A stretch of DNA of 24,000 nt from Saccoglossus kowalevskii (taxonomy: Eukaryota > Hemichordata > Enteropneusta > Harrimaniidae). The stretch lies in assembly GCF_000003605.2 (NCBI RefSeq), contig NW_003144225.1:1-24000 (forward strand), given 5' to 3'. The number at the start of each line of letters is the position of its first letter. Within the stretch, counting starts at the first letter, position 1. A program made the position numbers and the translations under genes. Shown piece by piece: positions 1-24,000 of the stretch. Below the pieces are notes generated by a model. The model ran no database searches. It saw nothing but the letters and a program-made list of their open reading frames with translations, and was not told the DNA's origin.

Positions 1-181
1 TTCAAAACTGTCATCGATGAACGCCATTTGACCGTCGAGCATTACGGCCAATCAGTCAACGCATAGTATAATTCAAAATTCTGAATATCCAGAATTCAAT
101 TGACTTAACTTTTAACTCCTATGTATTTCGATTGTTTCAATATGTGTCACGAGTGTTAGGCAAACGCATCAAAGGTTAACA

Positions 182-256
182 GGGCGTTGTGGGCGCAACG
201 GATAACGCGTCTGACTAGGGATCAGAAGATTCCTGGTTCAAATCCTGGCACGCTCA
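182..256 (+). pseudogene. tRNA-Arg-like copy 1, anticodon AGG, 2-nt insertions
   Basis: Two extra bases in the acceptor/D-arm junction (GGGCGTTGTGGGCGC) disrupt the fold. The anticodon loop reads CTAGGGA (AGG) in an Arg-type body. It belongs to the subtype with T stem CCTGG/CCTGG, discriminator A and trailer AGTATTATGG, and closely matches the copy at 16856. Confidence 0.8.
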
Positions 257-668
257 GTATTATGGCACATGTATTAGTTTTCAAGTTATATATGTTTGTT
301 TTCATCACAACATCAACTTTACGATAGCGCAACTCACCTTCGATAAACATGTCTCATATGAATCCCAAAAACTGTTTCATTTTCTCACACGTGTCATTGG
401 TGAACACCAGAGGGACCGATGAGCATGTGAGCATCTGCAGGTCAAATGAATCGGCTGGAGATTCTGCTATTCCAAAATTTGCATGTCTCAAAACTGTCAT
501 CGATGAACGCTATTGTGACAGTCGAGCGTTACAGCCAAACAGTCAACGCATAGTATAATTCAAAATTCTGAATATCCAGAATTCAATTGACTTAACTTTT
601 AATTCCTATGTATTTCGATTGTTTCAATATGTGTAACGAGTGTTAGGCAAACGCATCGAAGGTGAACA

Positions 669-741
669 GGGCGTGTGGCGCAACGGATAACGCGTCTGAC
701 TACGGATCAGAAGATTCCAGGTTCAAATCCTAGCACGCTCG
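669..741 (+). tRNA. tRNA-Arg(ACG)-like copy 2, commonest sequence
   Basis: Full 73-nt cloverleaf: acceptor GGGCGTG/CACGCTC (7 pairs, one G-T), D stem GCGC/ACGC, anticodon stem TCTGA/TCAGA with loop CTACGGA (anticodon ACG), variable AGATT, T stem CCAGG/CCTAG, T loop TTCAAAT, discriminator G, no CCA encoded. The body from D arm to the 5' T stem is as in animal tRNA-Arg-ACG. The D-stem C13/A22 mismatch is normal for that family; C50/A64 in the T stem is not and suggests a tRNA-derived repeat. A and B boxes are intact and TTTT lies at 763-766. Identical copies: 1638, 2615, 12980, 13949, 14919, 18310, 18795. Confidence 0.65.
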
Positions 742-1152
742 ATATTATGGTACATGTATTAGTTTTCAAGTTATATATGTATGTTTTCATTACACCATCA
801 ACTTTACGATAGCGCAACTCACCTTCGATAAACATGTGTCATATGAATCCCAAATACTGTTTCATTTTCTCACACGTGTCATTGGTGAACACCAGTGGGA
901 CCGATGAGCATATGAGCATCTGCAGGTCAAATGAATCGGCTGGAGTTTCGCCATTCCAAAATTTGCATGTCTCAAAACTGTCATCGATGAACACTATTTT
1001 GACCGTCGAGCGTTACGGCCAAACAGTCAACGCATACTATAATTCAAAATTCTGAATATCCAGAATTCAATTGACTTAACTTTTAATTCCTATGTATTTC
1101 GATTGTTTCAATATGTGTCACGAGTGTTAGGCAAACGTATCAAAGATGAACA

Positions 1153-1225
1153 GGGCGTGTGGCGCAACGGATAACGCGTCTGACTACGGATCAGAAGATT
1201 CCAGGTTAAAATCCTAGCACGCTCG
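1153..1225 (+). tRNA. tRNA-Arg(ACG)-like copy 3, B box damaged
   Basis: Matches the commonest sequence except C56 to A in the T loop (GGTTAAAATCC), which removes an invariant base needed both for the B box and for the D-loop/T-loop contact. Probably inactive. Confidence 0.5.
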
Positions 1226-1637
1226 ATATTATGGTACATGTATTAGTTTTCAAGTTATATATGTATGTTTTCATTACAACATCAACTTTACGATAGCGCA
1301 ACTCACCTTCGATAAACATGTGTCATATGAATCCCAAAATCTGCTTCATTTTCTCACACGTGTCATTGGTGAACACCAGTGGGACCGATGAGCATGTGAG
1401 CATCTGCAGGTCAAATGAATCGGCTGGAGATTCTGCTATTCCAAAATTTGCATGTCTCAAAACTGTCATCGATGAACGCTATTGTGACCGTCGAGCATTA
1501 CGGCCAAACAGTCAATGCATAGTATAATTCAAAATTCTGAATATCCAGAATTCAATTGACTTAACTTTTAATTCCCATGTATTTCGATTGTTTCAATATG
1601 TGTCACGAGTGTTAGGCAAACGTATCAAAGGCGAACA

Positions 1638-1710
1638 GGGCGTGTGGCGCAACGGATAACGCGTCTGACTACGGATCAGAAGATTCCAGGTTCAAATCCT
1701 AGCACGCTCG
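1638..1710 (+). tRNA. tRNA-Arg(ACG)-like copy 4, commonest sequence
   Basis: Identical to the copy at 669, with intact A and B boxes. The downstream T run is shortened (TATTAGTTTCAAG), so the nearest four-T stop is about 20 nt further on. Confidence 0.65.
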
Positions 1711-2121
1711 ATATTATGGCACTTGTATTAGTTTCAAGTTATATATGTATGTTTTCATCACACCATCAACTTTTCGATTGCGCAACTCACCTTCGATAAA
1801 CATGTGACCTATGAATCCCAAAATCTGTTTCATTTTCTCACACGTGTCATTGGTGAACACCAGTGGGACCGATGAGCATATGAGCATCTGCAGGTCAAAT
1901 GAATCGGCTGGAGTTTCTGCCATTCCAAAATTTGCATGTCTCAAAACTGTCATCGATGAACACTATTTTGACCGTCGAGCATTACGGCCAAACAGTCAAC
2001 GCATACTATAATTCAAAATTCTGAATAGCCAGAATTCAATTGACTTAACTTTTAATTCCTATGTATTTCGATTGTTTCAATATGTGTCACGAGTGTTAGG
2101 CAAACGTATCAAAGTTGAACA

Positions 2122-2194
2122 GGGCGTGTGGCGCAACGGATAACCCGTCTGACTACGGATCAGAAGATTCCAGGTTCAAATCCTAGCACGCTCG
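2122..2194 (+). tRNA. tRNA-Arg(ACG)-like copy 5, D-stem change
   Basis: D stem 3' strand is ACCC instead of ACGC, breaking the C11-G24 pair. Otherwise the commonest sequence with intact B box. Confidence 0.55.
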
Positions 2195-2358
2195 ATATTA
2201 TGGCACTTGTATTAGTTTTCAAGTTATATATGTATGTTTTCATCACAACATCAACTTTACGATAGCGCAACTCACCTTCGATAAACATGTGTCATATGAA
2301 TCCCAAAAACTGTTTCATTTTCTCACACGTGTCATTGGTGAACACCAGTGGGACCGAT

Positions 2359-2374
2359 GAGCATATGAGCATAT
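2359..2374 (+). repeat. 8-bp tandem duplication GAGCATAT
   Basis: The unit GAGCATAT occurs twice here, lengthening the monomer to 493 bp. Most monomers have one copy followed by GAGCATCT. It looks like replication slippage in a GAGCAT-rich stretch. Confidence 0.85.
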
Positions 2375-2614
2375 GAGCATCTGCAGGTCAAATGAATCGG
2401 CTGGAGTTTCTGCCATTCCAAAATTTGCATGTCTCAAAACTGTCATCGATGAACGCTATTTTGACCGTCGAGCATTACGGCCAAACAGTCAACGCATACT
2501 ATAATTCAAAATTCTGAATAGCCAGAATTCAATTGACTTAACTTTTAATTCCTATGTATTTCGATTGTTTCAATATGTGTCACGAGTGTTAGGCAAACGC
2601 ATCAAAGATGAACA

Positions 2615-2687
2615 GGGCGTGTGGCGCAACGGATAACGCGTCTGACTACGGATCAGAAGATTCCAGGTTCAAATCCTAGCACGCTCG
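2615..2687 (+). tRNA. tRNA-Arg(ACG)-like copy 6, commonest sequence
   Basis: Identical to the copy at 669: full cloverleaf, intact A and B boxes, TTTT in the trailer. Confidence 0.65.
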
Positions 2688-3099
2688 ATATTATGGTACA
2701 TGTATTAGTTTTCAAGTTATATATGTATGTTTTCATTACAACATCAACTTTACGATAGCGCAACTCACCTTCGATAAACATGTGCCATATGAATTCTAAA
2801 ATCTGCTTCATTTTCTCACACGTGTCATTGGTGAACACCAGTGGGACCGATGAGCATGTGAGCATCTGCAGGTCAAATGAATCGGCTGGAGATTCTGCCA
2901 TTCCAAAATTTGCATGTCTCAAAACTGTCATCGATGAACGCTATTGTGACCGTCGAGCGTCACGGCCAAACAGTCAATGCATAGTATAATTCAAAATTCT
3001 GAATATCCAGAATTCAATTGACTTAACTTTTAATTCCTATGTATTTCGATTGTTTCAATATGTGTCACGAGTGTTAGGCAAACGTATCAAAGGTGAACA

Positions 3100-3184
3100 G
3101 GGCGTGTGGCGCAACGGGAGGCGCAACGGATAACGCGTCTGACTACGGATCAGAAGATTCCAGGTTCAAATCCTAGCACGCTCG
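3100..3184 (+). pseudogene. tRNA-Arg-like copy 7 with duplicated D-arm start
   Basis: Twelve bases (GGCGCAACGGGA, 3108-3119) are duplicated in tandem inside the D arm, giving an 85-nt copy. The B box is intact but the cloverleaf is spoiled and the A/B box spacing is longer. Confidence 0.85.
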
Positions 3185-3597
3185 ATATTATGGCACTTGT
3201 ATTAGTTTTCAAGTTATATATGTATGTTTTCATCACACCATCAACTTTTCGATTGCGCAACTCACCTTCGATAAACATGTGTCACATGAATCCCAAAAAC
3301 TGTTTCATTTTCTCACACGTGTCATTGGTGAACACCAGTGGGACCGATGAGCATGTGAGCATCTGCAGGTCAAATGAATCGGCTGAAGTTTCTGCCATTC
3401 CAAAATTTGCATGTCTCAAAACTGTCATCAATGAACGCTATTGTGATCGTCGAGCGTTACGGCCAAGCAGTCAACGAATACTATAATTCAAAATTCTGAA
3501 TATCCAGAATTCAATTGACTTAACTTTTTAATTCCTATGTATTTCGATTGTTTCAATATGTGTCACGAGTGTTAGGCAAGCGCATCAAAGGTGAACA

Positions 3598-3670
3598 GGG
3601 CGTGTGGCGCAACGGATAACGCGTCTGACTACGGATCAGAAGATTCCTGGTTAAAATCCTAGCACGCTCG
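3598..3670 (+). tRNA. tRNA-Arg(ACG)-like copy 8, T arm damaged
   Basis: T stem CCTGG/CCTAG has two mismatches and the B box reads GGTTAAAATCC. Anticodon ACG. Probably inactive. Confidence 0.5.
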
Positions 3671-3842
3671 ATATTATGGCACATGTATTAGTTTTCAAGT
3701 TATATATATATGTTTTCATCACACCATCAACTTTACGATAGCGCAACTCACGTTCGATAAACATGTGTCATATGAATCCCAAAAACTGTTTCATTTTCTC
3801 ACACGTTTCATTGGTGAACACCAGTGGGACCGATGAGCATAT

Positions 3843-3858
3843 GAGCATCTGAGCATCT
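3843..3858 (+). repeat. 8-bp tandem duplication GAGCATCT
   Basis: GAGCATCT occurs twice in a row after GAGCATAT, at the same site as the duplication at 2359 but using the neighbouring 8-mer, so it arose separately. The corresponding monomer near 9830 lacks it. Confidence 0.85.
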
Positions 3859-4088
3859 GCAGGTCAAATGAATCGGCTGGAGTTTCTGCCATTCCAAAAT
3901 TTGCATGTCTCAAAACTGTCATCGATGAACGCTATTTTGACCGTCGAGCATTACGGCCAAACAGTCAACGCATACTATAATTCAAAATTCTGAATAGCCA
4001 GAATTCAATTGACTTAACTTTTAATTCCTATGTATTTCGATTGTTTCAATGTGTCACGAGTGTTAGGCAAACGCATCAAAGACGAACA

Positions 4089-4161
4089 GGGCGTGTGGCA
4101 CAACGGATAACGCGTCTGACTACGGATCAGAAGATTCCAGGTTCTAATCCTAGCACGCTCG
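4089..4161 (+). tRNA. tRNA-Arg(ACG)-like copy 9, both boxes altered
   Basis: D stem G12 to A (GGCACAACGG) and T loop TTCTAAT alter both the A and the B box. Anticodon ACG. Confidence 0.5.
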
Positions 4162-4573
4162 ATATTATGGTACATGTATTAGTTTTCAAGTTATATATGT
4201 ATGTTTTCATTACAACATCAACTTTACGATAGCGCAACTCACCTTCGATAAACATGTGTCATATGAATCCCAAAATCTGCTTCATTTTCTCACACGTGTC
4301 ATTGGTGAACACCAGTGGGACCGATGAGCATGTGAGCATCTGCAGGTCAAATGAATCGGCTGGAGATTCTGCTATTCCAAAATTTGCATGTCTCAAAACT
4401 GTCATCGATGAACGCTATTTTGACCGTCGAGCGTTACGGCCAAACAGTCAACGCATACTATAATTCAAAATTCTGAATATCCAGAATTCAATTGACTTAA
4501 CTTTTAATTCCTATGTATTTCGATTGTTTCAATATGTGTCACGAGTGTTAGGCAAACGCATCAAAGGCGAGCA

Positions 4574-4646
4574 GGGCGTGTGGCGCAACGGATATCGCGT
4601 CTGACTACGGATCAGAAGATTCCAGGTTCAAATCTTGGCACGCTCG
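4574..4646 (+). tRNA. tRNA-Arg(ACG)-like copy 10, CTTGG subtype
   Basis: D stem 3' strand TCGC and T stem CCAGG/CTTGG, which pairs fully if a G-T pair is allowed, unlike the commonest type. The B box ends in CT. Trailer is GATAATAGGG. The same subtype occurs at 10558 and 12010. Of the subtypes here, this has the best-paired T arm. Confidence 0.6.
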
Positions 4647-5059
4647 ATAATAGGGCACATGTATTAATTTTCAAGTTATATATGTATGTTTTCATTACAA
4701 CATCAACTTTACGATAGCGTAACTCACCTTCGATAAACATGTGTCACATGAATCCCAAAAACTGTTTCATTTTCTCACACGTGTCATTGGTGAACACCAG
4801 TGGGACCGATGAGCATGTGAGCATCTGCAGGTCAAATGAATCGGCTGAAGTTTCTGCCATTCCAAAATTTGCATGTCTCAAAACTGTCATCAATGAACGC
4901 TATTGTGATCGTCGAGCGTTACGGCCAAGCAGTCAACGAATACTATAATTCAAAATTCTGAATATCCAGAATTCAATTGACTTAACTTTTTAATTCCTAT
5001 GTATTTCGATTGTTTCAATATGTGTCACGAGTGTTAGGCAAGCGCATCAAAGGTGAACA

Positions 5060-5132
5060 GGGCGTGTGGCGCAACGGATAACGCGTCTGACTACGGATCA
5101 GAAGATTCCTGGTTCAAATCCTAGCACGCTCG
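5060..5132 (+). tRNA. tRNA-Arg(ACG)-like copy 11, hybrid T stem
   Basis: T stem CCTGG/CCTAG combines the 5' strand of one subtype with the 3' strand of the other, leaving two mismatches. B box GGTTCAAATCC intact. Confidence 0.55.
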
Positions 5133-5544
5133 ATATCATGGCACATGTATTAGTTTTCAAGTTATATATATATGTTTTCATCACACCATCAACTTTACGA
5201 TAGCGCAACTCACCTTCGATAAACATGTGTCATATGAATCCCAAAATCTGTTTCATTTTCTCACACGTGTCATTGGTGAACACCAATGGGACCGATGAGC
5301 ATGTGAGCATCTGCAGGTCAAATGAATCGGCTGGAGATTCTGCCATTCCAAAATTTGCATGTCTCAAAACTGTCATCGATAAACGCTATTGTGACCGTCG
5401 AGCGTTTCGGCCAAACAGTCAATGCATAGTATAATTCAAAATTCTGAATATCCAGAATTCAATTGACTTAACGTTTAATTCCTATGTATTTCGATTGTTT
5501 CAATATGTGTCACGAGTGTTAGGCAAACGTATCAAAGGTGAAAA

Positions 5545-5617
5545 GGGCGTGTGGCGCAACGGATAACGCGTCTGACTACGGATCAGAAGATTCCAGGTTC
5601 AAATCCTAGAACGCTCG
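5545..5617 (+). tRNA. tRNA-Arg(ACG)-like copy 12, acceptor change
   Basis: Acceptor 3' strand starts AACGCTC instead of CACGCTC, losing the last acceptor pair. Boxes intact, anticodon ACG. Confidence 0.55.
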
Positions 5618-6029
5618 ATATTATGGCACATGTATTAGTTTTCAAGTTATATATGTATGTTTTCATCACACCATCAACTTTACGATAGCGCAACTCACCT
5701 TCGATAAACATGTGTCATATGAATTGCAAAATCTGTTTCATTTTCTCACACGTGTCATTGGTGAACACCAATGGGACCGATGAGCATGTGAGCATCTGCA
5801 GGTCAAATGAATCGGCTGGAGATTCTGCCATTCCAAAATTTGCATGTCTCAAAACTGTCATCGATGAACGCTATTATGACAGTCGAGCGTTACGGCCAAT
5901 CAGTCAACGCATAGTATAATTCAAAATTCTGAATATCCAGAATTCAATTGACTTAACTTTTAATTCCTATGTATTTCGATTGTTTCAATATGTGTCACGA
6001 GTGTTAGGCAAACGCATCAAAGGTGAACA

Positions 6030-6102
6030 GGGCGTGTGGCGCAACGGATAACGCGTCTGACTACGGATCAGAAGATTCCAGGTTCAAATCATAGCACGCT
6101 CG
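6030..6102 (+). tRNA. tRNA-Arg(ACG)-like copy 13, T-stem change
   Basis: T stem 3' strand CATAG; the B box reads GGTTCAAATCA. Anticodon ACG, D arm intact. Confidence 0.5.
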
Positions 6103-6180
6103 ATATTATGGCACATGTATTAGTTTTCAAGTTATATATGTATGTTTTCATCACACCATCAACTTTACGAGAGCGCAACT

Positions 6181-6554
6181 CACCTTCGATATACATGTGT
6201 AATATGAATCCCAAAATCTGTTTCATTTTCTCACACGTGTCATTGGTGAACACCAATGGGACCGATGAGCATGTGAGCATCTGCAGGTCAAATGAATCGG
6301 CTGGAGATTCTGCCATTCCAAAATTTGCATGTCTCAAAACTGTCATCGATGAACGCTATGGTGACCGTCGAGCGTTATGGCCAATCAGTCAACGCATAGT
6401 ATAATTCAAAATTGTGAATATCCAGAATTCAATTGACTTAACTTTTAATTCCTATGTATTTCGATTGTTTCAATATGTGTCACGAGTGTTAGGGAAACGC
6501 ATCAAAGATGAACAGGGCGTGTGACGCAACGGATAACGCGTCTGACTACGGATC
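6181..6554 (+). repeat. Duplicated segment ending at the deletion junction, copy 1
   Basis: Shares with 8927-9300 (offset 2746) the rare markers ATACATGTGTAATATG, CTATGGTGACCG, GTTATGGCC, ATTGTGAATATCC, TTAGGGAAACGC and GTGACGC, and the same tRNA-internal deletion end. Confidence 0.8.
6515..6554 (+). pseudogene. 5' tRNA-Arg fragment, truncated after the anticodon arm start
   Basis: Forty nt from acceptor through GGATC of the anticodon arm, then an abrupt join to TGTTTCATTTTC from the middle of the spacer. The T arm, B box and trailer are gone. GTGACGC alters the A box. Confidence 0.9.
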
Positions 6555-6850
6555 TGTTTCATTTTCTCACACGTGTCATTGGTGAACACCAATGGGACCG
6601 ATGAGCATGTGAGCATCTGCAGGTCAAATGAATCGGCTGGAGATTCTGCCATTCCAAAATTTGCATGTCTCAAAACTGTCATCGATGAACGCTATGGTGA
6701 CCGTCGAGCGTTACGGCCTATCAGTCAACGCATAGTATAATTCAAAATTGTGAATATCCAGAATTCAATTGACTTAACTTTTAATTCCTATGTATTTCGA
6801 TTGTTTCAATATGTGTCACGAGTGTTAGGGAAACGCATCAAAGATGAACA
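6515..6850 (+). repeat. Shortened 336-bp monomer
   Basis: A 149-bp deletion relative to the 485-bp unit. Both deletion ends carry ATC (GGATC of the tRNA and AATCTGTTTC of the spacer), so a 3-bp microhomology join is likely. Confidence 0.88.
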
Positions 6851-6923
6851 GGGCGTGTGACGCAACGGATAACGCGTCTGACTACGGATCAGAAGATTCC
6901 AGGTTCAAATCCTAGCACGCTCG
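6851..6923 (+). tRNA. tRNA-Arg(ACG)-like copy 15, G10 to A
   Basis: D stem begins ACGC (GTGACGC), weakening the D stem and A box. Otherwise the commonest sequence. Shares this change with 6515, 7336 and 9261. Confidence 0.55.
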
Positions 6924-7335
6924 ATATTATGGCACATGTATTAGTTTTCAAGTTATATATGTATGTTTTCATCACACCATCAACTTTACGATAGCGCAAC
7001 TCACCTTCGATAAACATGTGTAATATGAATCCCAAAATCTGTTTCATTTTCTCACACGTGTCATTGGTGAACACCAATGGGACCGATGAGCATGTGAGCA
7101 TCTGCAGGTCAAATGAATCGGCTGGAGATTCTGCCATTCCAAAATTTGCATGTCTCAAAACTGTCATCGATGAACGCTATTGTGACCGTCGAGGGTTACG
7201 GCCAATCAGTCAACGCATAGTATAATTCAAAATTCTGAATATCCAGAATTCAATTGACTTAACTTTTAATTCCTATGTATTTCGATTGTTTCAATATGTG
7301 TCACGAGTGTTAGGCAAACGCATCAAAGATGAACA

Positions 7336-7408: not shown

Positions 7409-7820
7409 ATATTATGGCACATGTATTAGTTTTCAAGTTATATATGTATGTTTTCATCACACCATCAACTTTACGATAGCGCAACTCACCTTCGATAAAC
7501 ATGTGTAATATGAATCCCAAAATCTGTTTCATTTTCTCACACGTGTCATTGGTGAACACCAATGGGATCGATGAGCATGTGAGCATCTGCAGGTCAAATG
7601 AATCGGCTGGAGATTCTGCCATTCCAAAATTTGCATGTCTCAAAACTGTCATCGATGAACGCTATTGTGACCGTCGAGGGTTACGGCCAATCAGTCAACG
7701 CATAGTATAATTCAAAATTCTGAATATCCAGAATTCAATTGACTTAACTTTTAATTCCTATGTATTTCGATTGTTTCAATATGTGTCACGAGTGTTAGGC
7801 AAACGCATCAAAGGTGAGCA

Positions 7821-8926: not shown

Positions 8927-9300
8927 CACCTTCGACATACATGTGTAATATGAATCCCAAAATCTGTTTCATTTTCTCACACGTGTCATTGGTGAACACC
9001 AATGGGACCGATGAGCATGTGAGCATCTGCAGGTCAAATGAATCGGCTGGAGATTCTGCCATTCCAAAATTTGCATGTCTCAAAACTGTCATCGATGAAC
9101 GCTATGGTGACCGTCGAGCGTTATGGCCAATCAGTCAACGCATAGTATAATTCAAAATTGTGAATATCCAGAATTCAATTGACTTAACTTTTAATTCCTA
9201 TGTATTTCGATTGTTTCAATATGTGTCACGAGTGTTAGGGAAACGCATCAAAGATGAACAGGGCGTGTGACGCAACGGATAACGCGTCTGACTACGGATC
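8927..9300 (+). repeat. Duplicated segment ending at the deletion junction, copy 2
   Basis: Counterpart of 6181-6554. After the shared junction the sequence switches to a different monomer subtype, matching 3301 onward, so the copy is chimeric. Confidence 0.8.
9261..9300 (+). pseudogene. 5' tRNA-Arg fragment, same truncation as 6515
   Basis: Forty nt ending at GGATC and joined to TGTTTCATTTTC exactly as at 6554/6555. Lacks T arm and B box. Confidence 0.9.
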
Positions 9301-9589
9301 TGTTTCATTTTCTCCACACGTGTCATTGGTGAACACCAGTGGGACCGATGAGCATGTGAGCATCTGCAGTCAAATGAATCGCTGAAGTTTCTGCCATTCC
9401 AAAATTTGCATGTCTCAAAACTGTCATCAATGAACGCTATTGTGATCGTCGAGCGTTACGGCCAAGCAGTCAACGAATACTATAATTCAAAATTCTGAAT
9501 ATCCAGAATTCAATTGACTTAACTTTTTAATTCCTATGTATTTCGATTGTTTCAATATGTGTCACGGGCAAGCGCATCAAAGGTGAACA
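9261..9589 (+). repeat. Shortened 329-bp monomer
   Basis: Same 149-bp deletion as the 336-bp monomer, plus loss of 7 bp in the tRNA 5' flank (TGTGTCACGGGCAAGCG near 9559) and several single-base indels between 9314 and 9382. Confidence 0.85.
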
Positions 9590-12567: not shown

Positions 12568-12979
12568 ATAGTATGGTACATGTATTAGTTTTCAAGTTAT
12601 ATATGTATGTTTTCATTACAACATCAACTTTACGATAGCGCAACTCACCTTCGATAAACATGTGTCATATGAATCCAAAAATCTGTTTAATTTTCTCACA
12701 CGTGTCATTGGTGAACAGCAGTGGGACCGATGAGCATGTGAGCATCTGCAGGTCAAATGAATCGGCTGGAGTTTCTGCCATTCCAAAATTTGCATGTCTC
12801 AAAACTGTCATCGATGAACGCTATTGTGACCGTCGAGCGTTACGGCCAATCAGTCAACGCATAGTGTAATTCAAAATTCTGAATATCCAGAATTCAATTG
12901 ACTTAACTTTCAATTCCTATGTATTTCGATTGTTTCAATATGTGTAACGAGTGTTAGGCAAACGCATCGAAGGTGAACA

Positions 12980-13052
12980 GGGCGTGTGGCGCAACGGATA
13001 ACGCGTCTGACTACGGATCAGAAGATTCCAGGTTCAAATCCTAGCACGCTCG
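12980..13052 (+). tRNA. tRNA-Arg(ACG)-like copy 28, commonest sequence
   Basis: Identical to the copy at 669. 5' flank carries the GTGTAACGAG and CATCGAAGG variant shared with 669 and 18310. Confidence 0.65.
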
Positions 13053-13464
13053 ATATTATGGCACTTGTATTAGTTTTCAAGTTATATATGTTTGTTTTCA
13101 TTACAACATCAACTTTACGATAGCGCAACTCACCTTCGATAAACATGTGTCATATGAATCCCAAAATCTGTTTCATTTTCTCACATGTGTCATTGGTGAA
13201 CACCAGTGGGACCGATGAGCATGTGAGCATCTGCAGGTCAAATGAATCGGCTGGAGATTCTGCTATTCCAAAATTTGCATGTCTCAAAACTGTCATCGAT
13301 GAACGCTATTGTGACCGTCGAGCGTTACGGCCAAACAGTCAACATATACTATAATTCAAAATTCTGAATATCCAGAATTCAATTGACTTAACTTTTAATT
13401 CCTATGTATTTCGATTGTTTCAATATGTGTCACGAGTGTTAGGCAAACGCATCAAAGGTGAACA

Positions 13465-13536
13465 GGGTGTGTGGCAAACGGATAACGCGTCTGACTGCGG
13501 ATCAGAAGATTCCAGGTTCAAATCCTAGCACGCTCG
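13465..13536 (+). pseudogene. tRNA-Arg-like copy 29, anticodon GCG, D-arm deletion
   Basis: GGCAAACGG deletion in the D arm, C4 to T in the acceptor, loop CTGCGGA (anticodon GCG). B box intact. Confidence 0.75.
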
Positions 13537-13948
13537 ATATTATGGCACATGTATTAGTTTTCAAGTTATATATGTATGTTTTCATCACACCATCAACTTT
13601 ACGATAGCGCAACTCACCTTCGATAAACATGTGTAATATGAATCCCAAAATCTTTTTCATTTTCTCACACGTGTTATTGGTGAACACCAGTGGGACCGAT
13701 GAGCATGTGAGCATCTGCAGGTCAAATGAATCGGCTGGAGATTCTGCTATTCCAAAATGTGCATGTCTCAAAACTGTCATCGATGAACGCTATTGTGACA
13801 GTCGAGCGTTACAGCCAAACAGTCAACGCATAGTATAATTCAAAATTCTGAATATCCAGAATTCAATTGACTTAACTTTTAATTCCTATGTATTTCGATT
13901 GTTTCAATATGTGTCACGAGTGTTAGGCAAACGCATCGAAGGTGAACA

Positions 13949-14021
13949 GGGCGTGTGGCGCAACGGATAACGCGTCTGACTACGGATCAGAAGATTCCAG
14001 GTTCAAATCCTAGCACGCTCG
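13949..14021 (+). tRNA. tRNA-Arg(ACG)-like copy 30, commonest sequence
   Basis: Identical to the copy at 669, with intact boxes and TTTT at 14043-14046. Confidence 0.65.
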
Positions 14022-16443: not shown

Positions 16444-16673
16444 GTATTATGGCACATGTATTAGTTTTCAAGTTATATATGTTTGTTTTCATTACAACAT
16501 CAACTTTACGATAGCGCAACTCACCTTCGATAAACATGTGTCATATGAATCCCAAAATCTGTTTCATTTTCTCACACGTGTCATTGGTGAACACCAGTGG
16601 GACCGATGAGCATATAAGCATCTGCAGGTCAAATGAATCGGCTGGAGTTTCTGCCATTCCAAAATTTGCATGT

Positions 16674-17097
16674 TTCAAAACTGTCATCGATGAACGCCAT
16701 TTTGACCGTCGAGCATTACGGCCAATCAGTCAACGCATAGTATAATTCAAAATTCTGAATATCCAGAATTCAATTGACTTAACTTTTAACTCCTATGTAT
16801 TTCGATTGTTTCAATATGTGTCACGAGTGTTAGGCAAACGCATCAAAGGTTAACAGGGCGTGTGGCGCAACGGATAACGCGTCTGACTAGGGATCAGAAG
16901 ATTCCTGGTTCAAATCCTGGCACGCTCAGTATTATGGCACATGTATTAGTTTTCAAGTTATATATGTTTGTTTTCATCACAACATCAACTTTACGATAGC
17001 GCAACTCACCTTCGATAAACATGTCTCATATGAATCCCAAAAACTGTTTCATTTTCTCACACGTGTCATTGGTGAACACCAGTGGGACCGATGAGCA
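16674..17097 (+). repeat. Segment matching the window start (1-425)
   Basis: Aligns with 1-425 except small indels, sharing TTAACTCCTATG, the AGG anticodon, CTCAGTATTATGG and ATGTCTCATATG. After this point the first monomer of the window instead follows the sequence seen at 18067 onward. Confidence 0.75.
16856..16928 (+). tRNA. tRNA-like copy 36, Arg body with anticodon AGG
   Basis: Full 73-nt fold of the CCTGG subtype with loop CTAGGGA, i.e. anticodon AGG, which would read proline codons. Acceptor and boxes intact. Same change as in copy 1. Confidence 0.55.
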
Positions 17098-17340
17098 TAT
17101 GAGCATCTGCAGGTCAAATGAATCGGCTGGAGTTTCTGCCATTCCAAAATTTGCAAGTCTCAAAACTGTCATCGATGAACGCTATTTTGACCGTCGAGCA
17201 TTACGGCCAAACAGTCAAAGCATACTATAATTCAAAATTCTGAATAGCCAGAATTCAATTGACTTAACTTTTAATTCCTATGTATTTCGATCGTTTCAAT
17301 ATGTGTCACGAGTGTTAGGCAAACGCATCAATGGTGAACA

Positions 17341-17413
17341 GGGCGTGTGGCGCAACGGATAACGCGTCTGACTACGGATCAGAAGATTCCATGTTCAAAT
17401 CCTAGCACGCTCG
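17341..17413 (+). tRNA. tRNA-Arg(ACG)-like copy 37, B box damaged
   Basis: T stem CCATG breaks pairing and turns the B box into TGTTCAAATCC. Anticodon ACG. Confidence 0.5.
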
Positions 17414-17825
17414 ATAGTATGGTACATGTATTAGTTTTCAAGTTATATATGTATGTTTTCATTACAACATCAACTTTACGATAGCGCAACTCACCTTCGA
17501 TAAACATGTGTCATATGAATCCCAAAATCTGTTTCATTTTCTCACACGTGTCATTGGTGAACACCAGTGGGACCGATGAGCATATAAGCATCTGCAGGTC
17601 AAATGAATCGGCTGGAGTTTCTGCCATTCCAAAATTTGCATGTTTCAAAACTGTCATCGATGAACGCTATTGTGACCGTCGAGCGTTACGGCCAAACAGT
17701 CAACGAATACTATAATTCAAAATTCTGAATATCCAGAATTCAATTGACTTAACTTTTAATTCCTATGTATTTCGATTGTTTCTATATGTGTCACGAGTGT
17801 TAGGCAAACGCATCAAAGGTGAACA

Positions 17826-17897
17826 GGGCGTGTGGCAAACGGATAACGCGTCTGACTGCGGATCAGAAGATTCCAGGTTCAAATCCTAGCACGCTCG
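17826..17897 (+). pseudogene. tRNA-Arg-like copy 38, anticodon GCG, D-arm deletion
   Basis: GGCAAACGG deletion together with loop CTGCGGA, the same pair of changes as at 13465. Confidence 0.75.
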
Positions 17898-18309
17898 ATA
17901 TTATGGCACATGTATTAGTTTTCAAGTTATATATGTATGTTTTCATCACAACATCAACTTTACGATAGCGCAACTCACCTTCGATAAACATGTGTCATAT
18001 GAATCCCAAAATCTGTTTCATTTTCTCACACGTGTCATTGGTGAACACCAGTGGGACCGATGAGCATGTGAGCATCTGCAGGTCAAATGAATCGGCTGGA
18101 GATTCTGCTATTCCAAAATTTGCATGTCTCAAAACTGTCATCGATGAACGCTATTGTGACAGTCGAGCGTTACAGCCAAACAGTCAACGCATAGTATAAT
18201 TCAAAATTCTGAATATCCAGAATTCAATTGACTTAACTTTTAATTCCTATGTATTTCGATTGTTTCAATATGTGTAACGAGTGTTAGGCAAACGCATCGA
18301 AGGTGAACA

Positions 18310-18382
18310 GGGCGTGTGGCGCAACGGATAACGCGTCTGACTACGGATCAGAAGATTCCAGGTTCAAATCCTAGCACGCTCG
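18310..18382 (+). tRNA. tRNA-Arg(ACG)-like copy 39, commonest sequence
   Basis: Identical to the copy at 669; flank also shares GTGTAACGAG and CATCGAAGG with it. Confidence 0.65.
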
Positions 18383-18801
18383 ATATTATGGCACATGTAT
18401 TAGTTTTCAAGTTATATATGTGTGTTTTCATCACAACATCAACTTTACGATAGCGCAACTCACCTTCGATAAACATGTTTCATATGAATCCCAAAAACTG
18501 TTTCATTTTCTCACACGTGTCATTGGTGAACACCAGTGGGACCGATGAGCATATGAGCATCTGCAGGACAAATGAATCGGCTGGAGTTTCTGCCATTCCA
18601 AAATTTGCATGTCTCAAAACTGTCATTGATGAACGCTATTTTGACCGTCGAGCATTACGGCCAAACAGTCAACGCATACTATAATTCAAAATTCTGAATA
18701 GCCAGAATTCAATTGACTTAACTTTTAATTCCTATGTATTTCGATTGTTTCAATATGTGTCACGAGTGTTAGGCAAACGCATCAAAGATGAACAGGGCGT
18801 G

Positions 18802-18812
18802 TGGCGCAACGG
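18802..18812 (+). promoter_or_regulatory. Pol III A box (example copy)
   Basis: TGGCGCAACGG fits the type 2 Pol III A-box consensus TRGCNNARYGG and sits at the normal place, from tRNA base 8 through the D loop. The same word occurs at this place in most copies. Some copies are damaged: GTGACGC (6515, 6851, 7336, 9261), GGCACAACGG (4089, 8776, 21050), GGCAAACGG (11527, 13465, 15404, 15887, 17826). Confidence 0.8.
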
Positions 18813-18845
18813 ATAACGCGTCTGACTACGGATCAGAAGATTCCA

Positions 18846-18856
18846 GGTTCAAATCC
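18846..18856 (+). promoter_or_regulatory. Pol III B box (example copy)
   Basis: GGTTCAAATCC is an exact match to the B-box consensus GGTTCRANYCC, the TFIIIC binding element, in the T arm of the tRNA-like unit. Most copies keep it. Broken versions include GGTTAAAATCC (1153, 3598), GGTTCTAATCC (4089), TGTTCAAATCC (17341) and GTTTCAAATCC (20565); the 6515 and 9261 copies have lost it by deletion. Confidence 0.85.
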
Positions 18857-18888
18857 TAGCACGCTCGATATTACGGCACTTGTATTAG

Positions 18889-18892
18889 TTTT
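18889..18892 (+). terminator. Possible Pol III terminator (TTTT, example copy)
   Basis: The first run of four T after the tRNA 3' end lies 22 nt downstream, inside TATTAGTTTTCAAG. The run is present in nearly every monomer; it is TTTTT in the short dimer members (near 21483, 22311, 23134), shortened to TTT in the monomer of 1638, and TTTG in the last monomer. Four T is the minimal animal Pol III stop, so this would end a precursor of about 98 nt. Read-through to the next TTTT about 20 nt later is possible. Confidence 0.5.
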
Positions 18893-18997
18893 CAAGTTAT
18901 ATATGTATGTTTTCATCACACCATCAACTTTACGATAGCGCAACTCACCTTCGATAAACATGTGTCATATGAATCCCAAAATCTGTTTCATTTTCTC

Positions 18998-19022
18998 ACA
19001 CGTGTCATTGGTGAACACCAGT
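18998..19022. other. Paired palindromes (E-box-like ACACGTGT plus inverted repeat), example copy
   Basis: ACACGTGT at 18998-19005 is a perfect 8-bp palindrome containing the E-box core CACGTG. One base later ATTGGTG and CACCAGT form 7-bp inverted arms around AA. In many monomers the right arm is CACCAAT, making the arms perfectly complementary (e.g. 5757-5772). The pair is kept in both kinds of shortened monomer. It could be a protein site or a hairpin; I cannot tell which. Confidence 0.55.
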
Positions 19023-19174
19023 GGGACCGATGAGCATGTGAGCATCTGCAGGTCAAATGAATCGTCTGGAGTTTCTGCCATTCCAAAATTTGCATGTCTC
19101 AAAACTATCATCGATGAACGCCATTTTGACCGTCGAGCATTACGGCCAATCAGTCAACGCATAGTATAATTCAA

Positions 19175-19194
19175 AATTCTGAATATCCAGAATT
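19175..19194. other. Inverted repeat AATTCTG / CAGAATT (example copy)
   Basis: Seven-bp arms around a 6-nt loop AATATC, about 100 nt upstream of the next tRNA. Present in nearly every long monomer. Variants hit loop (AATAGC) or stem (ATTGTG near 6412 and 9158; ATACTG near 21777 and 22599), and the older monomers near 8203 and 8680 have AATTCAG...CTAGAATT. Loss of stem pairing in several copies argues against strong constraint. Confidence 0.45.
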
Positions 19195-19279
19195 CAATTG
19201 ACTTAACTTTTAATTCCTATGTATTTCGATTGTTTCAATATGTGTCACGAGTGTTAGGCAAACGCATCAAAGGTTAACA

Positions 19280-19352
19280 GGGCGTGTGGCGCAACGGATA
19301 ACGGGTCTGACTACGGATCAGAAGATTCCTGGTTCAAATCCTGGCACGCTCA
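19280..19352 (+). tRNA. tRNA-Arg(ACG)-like copy 41, CCTGG subtype
   Basis: D stem C25 to G (ACGG), T stem CCTGG/CCTGG, discriminator A. Anticodon ACG, B box intact. Confidence 0.55.
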
Positions 19353-19764
19353 GTATTATGGCACATGTATTAGTTTTCAAGTTATATATGTGTGTTTTCA
19401 TCACAACATCAACTTTACGATAGCGCAACTCACCTTCGATAAACATGTGTCATATGAATCCCAAAAACTGTTTCATTTTCTCACACGTGTCATTGGTGAA
19501 CACCAGTGGGACCGATGAGCATATGAGCATCTGCAGGTCAAATGAATCGGCTGGAGTTTCTGCCATTCCAAAATTTGCATGTCTCAAAACTGTCATCGAT
19601 GAACGCTATTTTGACCGTCGAGCATTACGGCCAATCAGTCAACGCATAGTATAATTCAAAATTCTGAATATCCAGAATTCAATTGACTTAACTTTTAATT
19701 CCTATGTATTTCGATTGTTTCAATATGTGTCACGAGTGTTAGGCAAACGCATCAAAGGTGAACA

Positions 19765-19837
19765 GGGCGTGTGGCGCAACGGATAACGCGTCTGACTAAG
19801 GATCAGACGATTCCTGGTCCAAATCCTGGCACGCTCA
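19765..19837 (+). tRNA. tRNA-like copy 42, Arg body with anticodon AAG
   Basis: Loop CTAAGGA gives AAG. B box is GGTCCAAATCC and the variable region has ACGATT. CCTGG subtype with discriminator A. Unlikely to be functional. Confidence 0.5.
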
Positions 19838-20228
19838 GTATTATGGCACATGTATTAGTTTTCAAGTTATATATGTTTGTTTTCATAACAACATCAACTT
19901 TCCGATAGCGCAACTAACCTTCGATAAACATGTGTAATATGAATCCCAAAATCTGTTTCATTTTCTCACACGTGTCATTGGTGAACACCAGTGGGACCGA
20001 TGAGCATGTGAGCATCTGCAGGTCAAATGAATCGGCTGGAGATTCTGCTATTCCAAAATTTGCATGTCTCAAACTGTCATCGATGAACGCTATTGTGACC
20101 GTCGAGCGTACGGCCAAACAGTCAACGCATACTATAATTCAAAATCAATTGACTTAAATTTACTTCCTATGTATTCAATTGATTCAATACGTGTCACCAG
20201 TGTTAAGCAAACGCATCAAAGGCGAACA

Positions 20229-20300
20229 GGGCGTGAGGCGCAACGGATAACGCGCTGACAACGAATCAGAAGATTCCAGGTTCAAATCCTGGCACGCTCG
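20229..20300 (+). pseudogene. Diverged tRNA-Arg-like copy 43
   Basis: 72 nt: T8 to A (GTGAGGCG), one base missing before the anticodon stem (CGCGCTGAC), loop CAACGAA lacking U33. The T stem CCAGG/CCTGG pairs perfectly and the B box is intact. Surrounded by strongly diverged spacer, part of a 462-bp monomer. Confidence 0.75.
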
Positions 20301-20564
20301 ATAGTATGGCACATGTGTTAGTTTTCAAGTTATATATGTATGTTTTCATCACAAAATTAACTTTGCGATAGAGCAACTCACCTGCGAAAACATGTGTCAT
20401 ATAAATCCCAAAATCTGTTTCATTTTCTCACACGTGTCAATGGTGAACACTGGTGGGACCGATGAGCATTTGCACGAGCTAATGCATCAAAGGTGAACAC
20501 GGCGTGTATTTCGATTGTTTCAATACGTGTCACGGCTGTTAGGCAAACGCATCAAAGGTGAACA

Positions 20565-20637
20565 GGGTGTGTGGCGCAACGGATAACGCGTCTGACTACG
20601 GATCAGAAGATTCCAGTTTCAAATCCTGGCACGCTCG
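20565..20637 (+). tRNA. tRNA-Arg(ACG)-like copy 44, B box damaged
   Basis: Acceptor GGGTGTG (T4-G69 wobble possible). T stem CCAGT/CCTGG and B box GTTTCAAATCC. Anticodon ACG. Confidence 0.5.
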
Positions 20638-21049
20638 ATATTGTGGCACATGTATTACTTTTCAAATTACATATGTATGTTTTCATCACAACATCAAGTA
20701 TACGACAGTGCAACTCACCTGCGACAAACATGTGTCATATGAATACCAAAATCTGTTTCAATTTCTCACACGTGTCATTGGTGAACACCAGTGGGACCGA
20801 TGAGCATGTGAGCATCTGCAGGTCAAATGAATCGGCTGGAGTTTCCACCATTCCAAAATTTGCATGTCTCAAAACTGTCATCGATGAACGCTATTGTGAC
20901 CGTCGAGCGTTACGGCCAAACAGTCAACGCATAGTATAATTCAAAATTCTGAATATCCAGAATTCAATTGACTTAACTTTTAATTCCTATGTATTTCGAT
21001 TGTTTCAATATGTGTCACGAGTGTTAGGCAAACGCATCAAAGGTGATCA

Positions 21050-21122
21050 GGGTGTGTGGCACAACGGATATCGCGTCTGACTACAGATCAGAAGATTCCA
21101 GGTTCAAAACTTGGCACGCTCG
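21050..21122 (+). tRNA. tRNA-like copy 45, anticodon ACA, damaged boxes
   Basis: Acceptor GGGTGTG, A box GGCACAACGG, loop CTACAGA (anticodon ACA), B box GGTTCAAAACT. Probably inactive. Confidence 0.5.
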
Positions 21123-21387
21123 ATATTATGGCACATGTATTAGTTTTCAAGTTATATAAGTATGTTTTCATTACAACATCAACTTTACGATAGAGCAACT
21201 CAAATTCGATAAACATGTGTCATATGAATCCTAAAATCTGTTTCATTTTCTCACACGTGTCATTGGTGAACACCAGTGGGACCGATGAGCATTTGCACGA
21301 GCTAATGCATCAAAGGCGAACAGGGCATGTATTTCAATTGATTCAATATGTGTCACGAGCGTTAGGCAAAAGCATCAAAGGCAAACA

Positions 21388-21460
21388 GGTCGTGTGGCGC
21401 AACGGATAACGCGTCTGACTACGGATCAGAAGATTCCAGGTTCAAATCCTAGCACGCTCG
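21388..21460 (+). tRNA. tRNA-Arg(ACG)-like copy 46, GGTCGTG acceptor
   Basis: G3 to T in the acceptor, otherwise the commonest sequence with intact boxes. This variant marks every short-to-long transition in the dimeric region (also 22217, 23040, 23863). Confidence 0.55.
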
Positions 21461-21878
21461 ATATTATGGCACATGTATTAGTTTTTAAGTTATATATATA
21501 TATGTATGTTTTCATCACACCATCAACTTTACGATAGCGCAACTCACCTTCGATAAACATGTGTCATATGAATTGCAAAATCTGTTTCATTTTCTCACAC
21601 GTGTCATTGGTGAACACCAATGGGACCGATGAGCATGTGAGCATCTGCAGGTCAAATGAATCGGCTGGAGATTCTGCCATTCCAAAATTTGCATGTCTCA
21701 AAACTGTCATCGATGAACGCTATTGTGACCGTCGAGCGTTACGGCCAATCAGTCAACGCATAGTATAATTCAAAATACTGAATATCCAGAATTCAATTGA
21801 CTTAACTTTTAATTCCTATGTATTTCGATTGTTTCAATATGTGTCACGAGTGTTAGGCAAACGCATCAAAGGTGATCA

Positions 21879-21951
21879 GGGCGTGTGGCGCAACGGATAA
21901 CGCGTCTGACTACGGATCAGAAGATTCCTGGTTCAAATCCTGGCACGCTCA
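21879..21951 (+). tRNA. tRNA-Arg(ACG)-like copy 47, CCTGG subtype
   Basis: Full fold with acceptor GGGCGTG/CACGCTC, T stem CCTGG/CCTGG, discriminator A, anticodon ACG, both boxes intact. Identical to the copy at 22702. Confidence 0.6.
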
Positions 21952-22121
21952 GTATTATGGCACATCTATTAGTTTTCAAGTTATATATGTTTGTTTTCAT
22001 CACAACATCAACTTTACGATAGCGCAACTCACCTTCGATAAACATGTGTCATATGAATCCCAAAAACTGTTTCATTTTCTCAGACGTGTCATTGGTGAAC
22101 ACCAGTGGGACCGATGAGCAT

Positions 22122-22157
22122 TTGCACGAGCTAATGCATCAAAGGCGAACAGGGCGT
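22122..22157 (+). repeat. 36-nt filler at the short-monomer junction (example)
   Basis: In short monomers GATGAGCAT is followed by 36 nt (GCACGAGCTAATGCATCAAA...GGCGT) and then by GTATTTC of the tRNA 5' flank. The filler looks like a shortened, diverged second copy of the tRNA 5' flank (CACGAG...GCATCAAAGG) plus the first bases of the tRNA. About 183 bp of spacer is missing, a net change of 147 bp. Confidence 0.75.
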
Positions 22158-22216
22158 GTATTTCAATTGATTCAATATGTGTCACGAGCGTTAGGCAAAA
22201 GCATCAAAGGCAAACA

Positions 22217-22289
22217 GGTCGTGTGGCGCAACGGATAACGCGTCTGACTACGGATCAGAAGATTCCAGGTTCAAATCCTAGCACGCTCG
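22217..22289 (+). tRNA. tRNA-Arg(ACG)-like copy 48, GGTCGTG acceptor
   Basis: Same as the copy at 21388; boxes intact, followed by a five-T run in TTAGTTTTTAAG. Confidence 0.55.
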
Positions 22290-22701
22290 ATATTATGGCA
22301 CATGTATTAGTTTTTAAGTTATATATGTATGTTTTCATCACACCATCAACTTTACGATAGCGCAACTCACCTTCGATAAACATGTGTCATATGAATTGCA
22401 AAATCTGTTTCATTTTCTCACACGTGTCATTGGTGAACACCAATGGGACCGATGAGCATGTGAGCATCTGCAGGTCAAATGAATCGGCTGGAGATTCTGC
22501 CATTTCAAAATTTGCATGTCTCAAAACTGTCATCGATGAACGCTATTGTGACCGTCGAGCGAGACGGCCAATCAGTCAACGCATAGTATAATTCAAAATA
22601 CTGAATATCCAGAATTCAATTGACTTAACTTTTAATTCCTTTGTATTTCGATTGTTTCAATATGTGTCACGAGTGTTAGGCAAACGCATCAAAGGTGATC
22701 A

Positions 22702-22774
22702 GGGCGTGTGGCGCAACGGATAACGCGTCTGACTACGGATCAGAAGATTCCTGGTTCAAATCCTGGCACGCTCA
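22702..22774 (+). tRNA. tRNA-Arg(ACG)-like copy 49, CCTGG subtype
   Basis: Identical to the copy at 21879. Confidence 0.6.
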
Positions 22775-23039
22775 GTATTATGGCACATCTATTAGTTTTC
22801 AAGTTATATATGTTTGTTTTCATCACAACATCAACTTTACGATAGCGCAACTCACCTTCGATAAACATGTGTCATATGAATCCCAAAAACTGTTTCATTT
22901 TCTCACACGTGTCATTGGTGAACACCAGTGGGACCGATGAGCATTTGCACGAGCTAATGCATCAAAGGCGAACAGGGCGTGTATTTCAATTGATTCAATA
23001 TGTGTCACGAGCGTTAGGCAAAAGCATCAAAGGCAAACA

Positions 23040-23112
23040 GGTCGTGTGGCGCAACGGATAACGCGTCTGACTACGGATAAGAAGATTCCAGGTTCAAATC
23101 CTAGCACGCTCG
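23040..23112 (+). tRNA. tRNA-Arg(ACG)-like copy 50, anticodon-stem change
   Basis: GGTCGTG acceptor; anticodon stem 3' strand is TAAGA, breaking one pair. Boxes intact. Confidence 0.5.
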
Positions 23113-23524
23113 ATATTATGGCACATGTATTAGTTTTTAAGTTATATATGTATGTTTTCATCACACCATCAACTTTACGATAGCGCAACTCACCTTCGAT
23201 AAACATGTGTCATATGAATTGCAAAATCTGTTTCATTTTCTCACACGTGTCATTGGTGAACACCAATGGGACCGATGAGCATGTGAGCATCTGCAGGTCA
23301 AATGAATCGGCTGGAGATTCTGCCATTCCAAAATTTGCATGTCTCAAAACTGTCATCGATGAACGCTATTGTGAACGTCGAGCGTTACGGCCAATCAGTC
23401 AACGCATAGTATAATTCAAAATACTGAATATCCAGAATTCAATTGACTTAACTTTTAATTCCTATGTATTTCGATTGTTTCAATATGTGTCACGAGTGTT
23501 AGGAAAACGCATCAAAGGTGATCA

Positions 23525-23597
23525 GGGCGTGTGGCGCAACGGATAACACGTCTGACTACGGATCAGAAGATTCCTGGTTCAAATCCTGGCACGCTTA
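23525..23597 (+). tRNA. tRNA-Arg(ACG)-like copy 51, CCTGG subtype
   Basis: D stem ACAC and acceptor 3' strand CACGCTT, which pairs T72 with G1 as a wobble. Discriminator A. Confidence 0.5.
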
Positions 23598-23689
23598 GTA
23601 TTATGGCACATCTATTAGTTTTCAAGTTATATATGTTTGTTTTCATCACAACATCAACTTTACGATAGCGCAACTCACCTTCGATAAAC

Positions 23690-24000
23690 ATGTGTCATAT
23701 GAATCCCAAAAACAGTTTCATTTTCTCAGACGTGTCATTGGTGAACACCAGTGGGACCGATGAGCATTTGCACGAGCTAATGCATCAAAGGCGAACAGGG
23801 CGTGTATTTCAATTGATTCAATATGTGTCACGAGCGTTAGGCAAAAGCATCAAAGGCAAACAGGTCGTGTGGCGCAACGGATAACGCGTCTGACTACGGA
23901 TCAGAAGATTCCATGTTCAATCCTGGCTCGCTCGATGTTGTGTCATATGTATTAGTTTGCAAGTTCTATATGTATGTTTTCATCGCAACATCAACTTCAC
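23690..24000 (+). repeat. 823-bp dimeric repeat, partial copy 5
   Basis: Begins as the other short monomers, but from about 23913 onward it accumulates differences from its counterparts (CCATGTTCAATCCTGGCTCG, GATGTTGTGTC, TTTGCAAGTTCTATATG, CATCGCAACATCAACTTCAC). The window ends inside it. Confidence 0.85.
23863..23934 (+). pseudogene. tRNA-Arg-like copy 52, diverged 3' half
   Basis: GGTCGTG acceptor and normal D and anticodon arms, then a damaged T arm (CCATGTTCAATCCTGG, one base short) and acceptor 3' strand CTCGCTC. The trailer T run is lost (TTAGTTTGC). Confidence 0.75.

Follow-up and report, generated by a model that had tools for sequence, protein, structure and literature searches.

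The 24,000-bp stretch of Saccoglossus kowalevskii DNA analyzed here (the window, which is the whole of contig C3521, exactly 24000 bp) is filled throughout, from 1 to 24000 on the plus strand, by a tandem array of a 485-bp satellite unit carrying a tRNA-Arg(ACG) sequence, and this satellite was most probably seeded by a single tRNA gene that was amplified in tandem with an unrelated spacer. Searching with blastn identifies 52 tRNA-Arg-like copies spanning 182 to 23934, all of them on the plus strand, and two of these align over their first 40 bases only; ARAGORN makes 49 tRNA calls and Rfam reports 50 tRNA matches at the gathering score. TRF gives a period of 485 across 2-20469 in three rows, together with a period of 338 near the 3' end in two rows. 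The first-pass annotation claimed 52 same-strand tandem copies at a 485-bp period, and both parts of this claim are borne out. The description of the array as homogeneous needs tempering; 38 of the 51 spacings between tRNA starts are indeed 480-487 bp, but 13 differ (seven are 329-338 bp and six have other lengths), and pairwise identity among the 51 monomers averages 0.937 with a range of 0.751-0.997. The longest closed ORF within the window is 126 codons long, and the arrangement is that of a satellite, with a non-protein-coding unit repeated head-to-tail in a long array (52 copies in 24 kb, and array contigs of up to 39 kb).

A representative 485-bp monomer, extending from one tRNA start to the next, lies at 12980..13464 (plus strand), with its tRNA-Arg(ACG) body at 12980..13052. 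The body contains TGGCGCAACGG at 12987..12997 and GGTTCAAATCC at 13031..13041, which we take to be A-box-like and B-box-like, respectively, by comparison with the A-box and B-box consensus sequences. The first run of four T residues, a possible Pol III terminator, is 21 bases 3' of the tRNA (13074..13077), an offset shared by 39 of the 51 window monomers; across the array monomers the T4 run is mostly either 21 or 28 bases downstream. Strict matches to the A box are present in 39 and to the B box in 33 of the 51 window monomers, and both are present in 23, so that the earlier statement that almost every monomer has Pol III promoters is too strong. Outside of the window, both strict boxes are found in 116 of 183 monomers. 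An Rfam search of 12800-14000 (E≤5) for ribozymes or other known RNAs in the spacer returned the tRNAs themselves and otherwise nothing but weak matches that fall short of the family gathering scores.

Several monomers depart from this pattern. Deletion monomers of 336 bp (6515..6850) and 329 bp (9261..9589) have a tRNA that aligns over its first 40 bases only, and a further 336-bp deletion monomer (20229..20564) has a full-length tRNA; all three are on the plus strand. At the 3' end of the array, monomers of 338 bp alternate with monomers of 485 or 491 bp to form an 823-bp higher-order repeat (21050..23862, plus strand, and tight from 21388), within which monomers two apart are up to 0.997 identical. 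Higher-order repeats of this kind, and the local subfamilies described below, are those of concerted evolution in satellites.

The same satellite is present elsewhere in the 572-Mb genome, which was searched with tRNA probes of 48 and 73 bases (exact matches) and 36 bases (up to one mismatch). Reversed patterns of these three probes had no matches in the 572 Mb, excluding chance as an explanation for the tRNA-Arg-like copies. There are nine array contigs, which are unplaced on chromosomes, and a consensus was derived from 212 full-length monomers found in them. The window contig forms its own subfamily, with an identity of 0.954 within the contig and 0.896-0.903 to the seven other main array contigs; among those seven, likeness between contigs is about the same as likeness within them. 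The consensus tRNA is identical over 73/73 bases to lone tRNA-Arg(ACG) genes on contigs C286, C2340 and C3850. The 28 exact 73-base gene bodies in the genome comprise these three lone genes and 25 array copies, with none in the window. In the 10 kb fetched around each lone gene, the monomer matches the tRNA and at most seven additional bases. The first-pass annotation had proposed to look for a lone tRNA-Arg(ACG) gene with the same flanks; lone genes are present, but none that shares the flanks was found, and neither was a source of the spacer.

Arg(ACG) is not the only tRNA gene to be arrayed in this genome. Outside of the window there are five or more additional families of tandem tRNAs: Arg(TCG) on contig C237 with a spacing of 274-292 bp, Cys(GCA) at 235-240 bp with one spacing of 384 bp, Lys(CTT) at 527 bp, Lys(TTT) at 335 and 416 bp, and a Glu-like array at about 285-296 bp that is defined by pattern positions alone. 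The four of these that were sampled have little in common beyond their tRNA bodies. Because the spacers around five sampled tRNA families (with the sixth known by pattern) are unrelated, the tRNA is likely to be the common factor. The Arg(ACG) satellite was also described as unusual, but this requires qualification in view of the five or more further tandem tRNA families in the same genome and the arrays published for Hydractinia and Nematostella (see below).

Two alternative accounts of the array are very unlikely. The tandem copies might be an artefact of assembly, and it is consistent with this that the array contigs have lengths of only 10-39 kb, that eight of the nine are satellite throughout the fetched parts apart from small inserts, and that the window contig has a length of exactly 24000 bp. 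However, 211 of the 212 full-length monomers are distinct in sequence, the window contig is a separate subfamily with its own higher-order repeat, and contig C3746 contains a remnant array that is 77-87% identical to the window monomer and is flanked on either side by unrelated sequence. The Lys(CTT) array likewise stops at about 63,970 within a contig of 129,674 bp, and the 1.4 kb read past its end is different sequence. An origin from a tRNA-derived SINE caught in a tandem array has about as little to commend it. The form of the unit is SINE-like, in that a non-tRNA body follows a tRNA head containing boxes A and B, but a spacer probe allowing up to three mismatches finds 314 places in the 572 Mb, where the arrays alone predict 315.8 (240 counted in the fetched arrays and 75.8 by extrapolation, within the error of which a few dispersed spacer copies could sit). 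All 48 exact spacer matches are in array contigs, the three lone genes lack any such body, and, within the reach of probes that are blind to very diverged copies, there is no evidence for dispersed copies of head plus body. The SINE origin was set aside on the spacer count, and of the two sources suggested initially, a SINE or a captured gene, the genome searches favor gene capture, and the direction was probably from gene to satellite. The tandem unit has no free ends, which bears on the 3' tail and target-site duplication of a SINE.

A third possibility, suggested by analogy with the Arabidopsis Ser-Tyr-Tyr cluster, is that the arrays are functioning clusters of tRNA genes, whose amplification met the need of some tissue or stage for a higher dosage of tRNA; we regard this as improbable, although less so than the previous two. 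In its favor are the identity of the consensus tRNA to the lone gene, the 25 exact array copies, the monomers with both strict boxes and a regularly placed T4 run, and the arraying of several isotypes. The exact body is, moreover, present in only three lone genes, and the genome probe search found no lone gene with an AATGG variant of a 35-base core. Mean column identity is also highest over the tRNA (0.961, compared to 0.936; rank 1 of 412 among 73-base windows of the monomer), as might result from weak selection or from conversion by functional copies, but because these windows overlap and the monomers are related we do not take this rank as significant. Against working clusters, none of the window copies is identical to the intact gene, and nine of the 52 have an altered anticodon (43 are ACG, four GCG, two AGG, and one each ACT, AAG and ACA). 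Of the 255 array copies, ARAGORN accepts 181 as tRNAs and assigns 162 of these to Arg(ACG); a T-arm duplication is present in 38 of the 183 monomers outside of the window (by regular-expression match), and monomers of 381 bp (n=9) and 264 bp (n=4) lack the 3' half of the tRNA. Changes restricted to a single monomer are not depleted in the tRNA, with 49 in its 73 sites compared to 173 in the 412 spacer sites, and 46 compared to 136 when L036 and two outlier monomers are omitted; the excess in the tRNA comes in part from misaligned monomers, with L038_1820 supplying six of the 46. Non-CpG singletons are also denser in the tRNA (39 in 55 sites, compared to 153 in 374). Transcription-associated mutation might account for the singleton excess, but misaligned monomers contribute to it and the idea is kept only as a lead. 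As the tRNA shows no shortage of singletons relative to the spacer, we doubt that most copies are kept as genes, and infer that most of the array copies are not needed as such.

In the origin from a single gene that we favor, a tRNA-Arg(ACG) gene would have contributed its 73-bp body, which came to adjoin unrelated spacer DNA, and the resulting unit would have been amplified and homogenized in tandem. Unequal exchange, or something akin to it, was presumably responsible, and would have produced the local subfamilies, the higher-order repeats and the monomers with deletions. Dispersed lone genes would persist as intact copies. Most of the arrayed copies would remain tRNA-like but drift, acquiring different anticodons, damaged T arms and truncations, and transcription could continue from some whose internal promoters are intact. 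At least five other tRNA genes of this genome would have undergone something similar, and the four that were sampled have unrelated spacers. A broader and more doubtful idea is that satellite DNA in this genome repeatedly nucleates at tRNA genes, with the Pol III body, as a replication-fork barrier or chromatin-bound site, promoting its own tandem amplification together with the adjoining spacer; many isotypes would then gain satellites, and arrays bound by Pol III factors might have a structural role or provide a store of spare tRNA genes.

Tandem tRNA arrays are already known, and the Arg(ACG) satellite adds one more case. The closest parallels, as described in the available portions of the papers cited here, are in Hydractinia and Nematostella (PMC11067881), animals with evenly spaced tRNA arrays of several isotypes and repeated spacers that are at least several hundred bases long; Saccoglossus similarly has one tRNA per unit, even spacing, similar spacers and several isotypes per genome. 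The Hydractinia copies are described as nearly identical or highly similar, whereas those of Saccoglossus appear to have drifted (with a mean identity of 0.937 in the window and 25 exact gene bodies in all of the arrays). Hydractinia also has arrayed rRNA and U-snRNA genes (PMC11067881), and the comparison here is of the tRNA arrays alone. The mitochondrial contig, C4830, indicates that the present genome is not that of a cnidarian: its COX1, read by eye, is that of an animal with TGA as Trp, AAA as Lys and AGA as Ser, and no close species was named among the 60 chains listed in a PDB search. The Arabidopsis SYY cluster, for which a role in increasing the tRNA supply of a particular tissue or stage has been proposed, also consists of tandem repeats in which an intact body predominates and pseudogene-like copies are the minority, with dispersed genes elsewhere, but its units are Ser-Tyr-Tyr, and tissue expression and the effect of deletion were tested there (PMC12308677). 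The amphibian Pol III satellites, newt PolIII/TAN (about 360 nt and tRNA-related), Xenopus OAX and Rana/polIII, are also tandem repeats with tRNA-related sequence, for which PMC10702118 finds no confirmed SINE; Rana/polIII has 64% tRNA similarity over 64 nt according to the same paper, whereas the Saccoglossus consensus includes the whole gene body. Entamoeba has tandem tRNA gene arrays with many unit types per genome, but there almost all tRNA genes are arrayed, with up to five per unit and microsatellite-like spacers (PMC2652664), whereas Saccoglossus also has lone genes. The human 1q23.3 VNTR is a tRNA tandem repeat as well, but with a 7.3-kb GC-rich unit containing several tRNAs and CTCF sites, and with demonstrated copy-number variation (PMC4041453). 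No description of the 485-bp monomer was found in the literature searched by title and start of abstract, and the main text of the Pacific oyster satellitome paper contains neither 'tRNA' nor '485'.

These observations link tRNA gene number with the birth of satellites, two subjects that are usually treated apart, and make it possible to test, by comparing relatives, if satellites are seeded by Pol III genes. They also carry a warning: where automatic annotation counts tRNA genes in genomes of this kind, satellite copies that are drifting and have altered anticodons may swell the total.

The 24,000-bp window is the complete contig C3521, one of 4830 contigs (572 Mb) searched, and blastn with one tRNA body as query identifies 52 tRNA-Arg copies within it, all on the + strand (ARAGORN reports 49, and Rfam 50). 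The first-pass annotation had described a same-strand tandem array with a 485-bp period; the orientation holds throughout, but 13 of the 51 spacings depart from that period, with 38 measuring 480–487 bp, seven measuring 329–338 bp, and six having other lengths. Pairwise identity among the 51 monomers averages 0.937. Short monomers at 6515 (336 bp) and 9261 (329 bp) have a tRNA that is alignable over its first 40 bases only, and further short ones from 20229 onwards lack spacer and retain the tRNA. From approximately 21050, and tightly from 21388, 338-bp monomers alternate with 485- or 491-bp monomers to form an 823-bp higher-order repeat, where identity between monomers two apart reaches 0.997.

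A 48-base tRNA probe has 77 exact matches in 12 contigs of the 572 Mb (control, 0); three of these contigs contain a lone gene only, and nine contain an array (C574, C3216, C3521, C3594, C4113, C4163, C4549, and C4645) or an array remnant (C3746). Array copy numbers are lower bounds because the assembly breaks within arrays. These contigs were sampled whole or in part, to give 14 stretches (128 kb including the window) with 255 tRNA matches; the unread portions amount to about 18 kb in C4549, 15 kb in C4645, and lesser lengths elsewhere. Cutting between adjacent tRNA starts yielded 234 monomers, with seven of 241 spacings left out as shorter than 300 bp, and the 212 monomers of 460–510 bp were aligned. 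The tRNA of the 485-bp consensus is identical over 73 bases to the tRNA-Arg(ACG) genes that stand alone on C286, C2340, and C3850, and the exact 73-base gene body occurs at 28 places genome-wide: the three lone genes and 25 array copies, none in the window. C3521 monomers share an identity of 0.954 among themselves, 0.896–0.903 with monomers from the remaining seven main array contigs, and only 0.870 with the single aligned C3746 monomer, whereas the seven others resemble each other about as closely as they do themselves (0.912–0.923). C3521 is a separate subfamily of the satellite.

Three contigs, C3594, C4549, and C4113, also have monomers interrupted by an insert some 208 bp long, whose terminal inverted repeats read TACTGTAAAA / TTTTACAGTA (at 7435–7642, 1115–1322, and 1879–2085 in the fetched stretches L043, L044, and L045, respectively). 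This looks like a MITE, and was perhaps co-amplified with the satellite.

Two origins had been proposed for the monomer, a dispersed SINE with the same body or a lone gene captured with its flanks. The gene proposal stands in part: the three lone genes share the 73-base body, but comparison of 10 kb around each with a monomer and with the consensus shows a match of the tRNA plus at most seven further bases, and no spacer. The SINE proposal is not borne out. A spacer 26-mer (up to three mismatches) has 314 genome matches (control, 0) against 315.8 expected from arrays alone, of which 240 lie in fetched stretches and 75.8 are extrapolated to unfetched array parts. A 36-base tRNA probe has 215 matches against an arrays-only expectation of 214.4, to which the three lone genes are additional. 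These counts suggest space for only a few dispersed copies of spacer or tRNA at most, within the extrapolation error, among copies not so diverged that the probes would overlook them.

The remnant array on C3746 is 77–87% identical to a window monomer and has unrelated flanks on both sides. Some of its tRNA copies have the lone-gene T arm TTCGAATCCTGG, which is whole in no window copy, and this pattern fits a gene that would have joined the repeat unit, with its copies drifting afterwards. Upstream of the remnant, at a distance of about 0.9 kb, are three broken pieces of a LINE-like retrotransposon (5966–8733 of L036, the fetched C3746 stretch); one of them matches a reverse transcriptase at E 2e-6 and 28 bits, just under the Pfam cut-off of 29.6.

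Maintenance of the array copies as tRNA genes would agree with the intact consensus tRNA, the 25 exact copies, a T4 run usually 21 or 28 bases downstream of the tRNA, and the acceptance of 181 of 255 copies by ARAGORN. Moreover, the tRNA has the highest mean column identity (0.961 versus 0.936, rank 1 of 412 windows). Also in favour, although fewer than the Pol III promoters that the first-pass annotation placed in almost every monomer, both boxes, scored as strict A- and B-box consensus strings, are present in 23 of the 51 window monomers and 116 of 183 others. However, single-monomer changes are denser, not rarer, in the tRNA (49 in 73 sites versus 173 in 412; binomial p 0.005), and number 46 versus 136 without L036 and two outliers, although one probably misaligned monomer supplies six of the 46. 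The anticodon is altered in nine of the 52 window copies, a T-arm duplication pattern is seen in 38 of the 183 monomers outside the window, and the 3' half of the tRNA is missing from deletion monomers of two kinds, one of 381 bp (nine spacings) and one of 264 bp (four spacings). Judging from these sequence patterns, the majority of array copies are probably not maintained as genes.

Other tRNAs in this genome also form satellites. Scanning the genome with the tRNA model of Rfam gave 25,204 loose candidates, and most of the best 63, which were scored, are in tandem on few contigs, chiefly C237 and C926. The tRNA-Arg(TCG) array on C237 has a basic spacing of 274–292 bp in a small sample, and its ARAGORN-called and degenerate, uncalled copies alternate (L048, 1–2401) in a higher-order repeat of about 550 bp, paralleling the 823-bp repeat of the window. 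tRNA-Cys(GCA) is in tandem on C926, C682, and C4368 at 235–240 bp with a single exception of 384 (small samples). A pattern for one tRNA class occurs exactly at 52 places, including tandem Lys(TTT) on C874 and Lys(CTT) on C4166 (129,674 bp); the latter array has 527-bp spacing and ends at about 63,970, with one further pattern match at 129,199, and several of its monomers read Asn(GTT) through an anticodon change (as at L053, 1132–1204). A second pattern occurs at 440 places genome-wide; among the 100 listed, the 51 with sequence letters look like tRNA-Glu by anticodon loop, with steps of about 285–296 bp and multiples on C103, C742, and C983 by pattern positions alone. The tRNA is likely the factor common to these satellites, because blastn among those sampled finds nothing shared beyond the tRNA bodies, extended by about a dozen neighbouring bases at most.

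The C3521 array adds to known tandem tRNA arrays and Pol III satellites. The Arabidopsis SYY cluster combines intact major copies with pseudogene-like minor ones (PMC12308677), and in amphibians the Pol III satellites of newt, Xenopus (OAX), and Rana contain tRNA-related sequence, with no SINE confirmed (PMC10702118). Distinctive here are several drifted satellites, each of a single isotype, one of which matches lone genes exactly in its consensus. As a separate observation, the genetic code read from the mitochondrial contig C4830 (L047) suggests an animal other than a cnidarian or an echinoderm, and COX1 on this contig lies on the strand opposite to frames resembling COX2 and NAD1 by eye.
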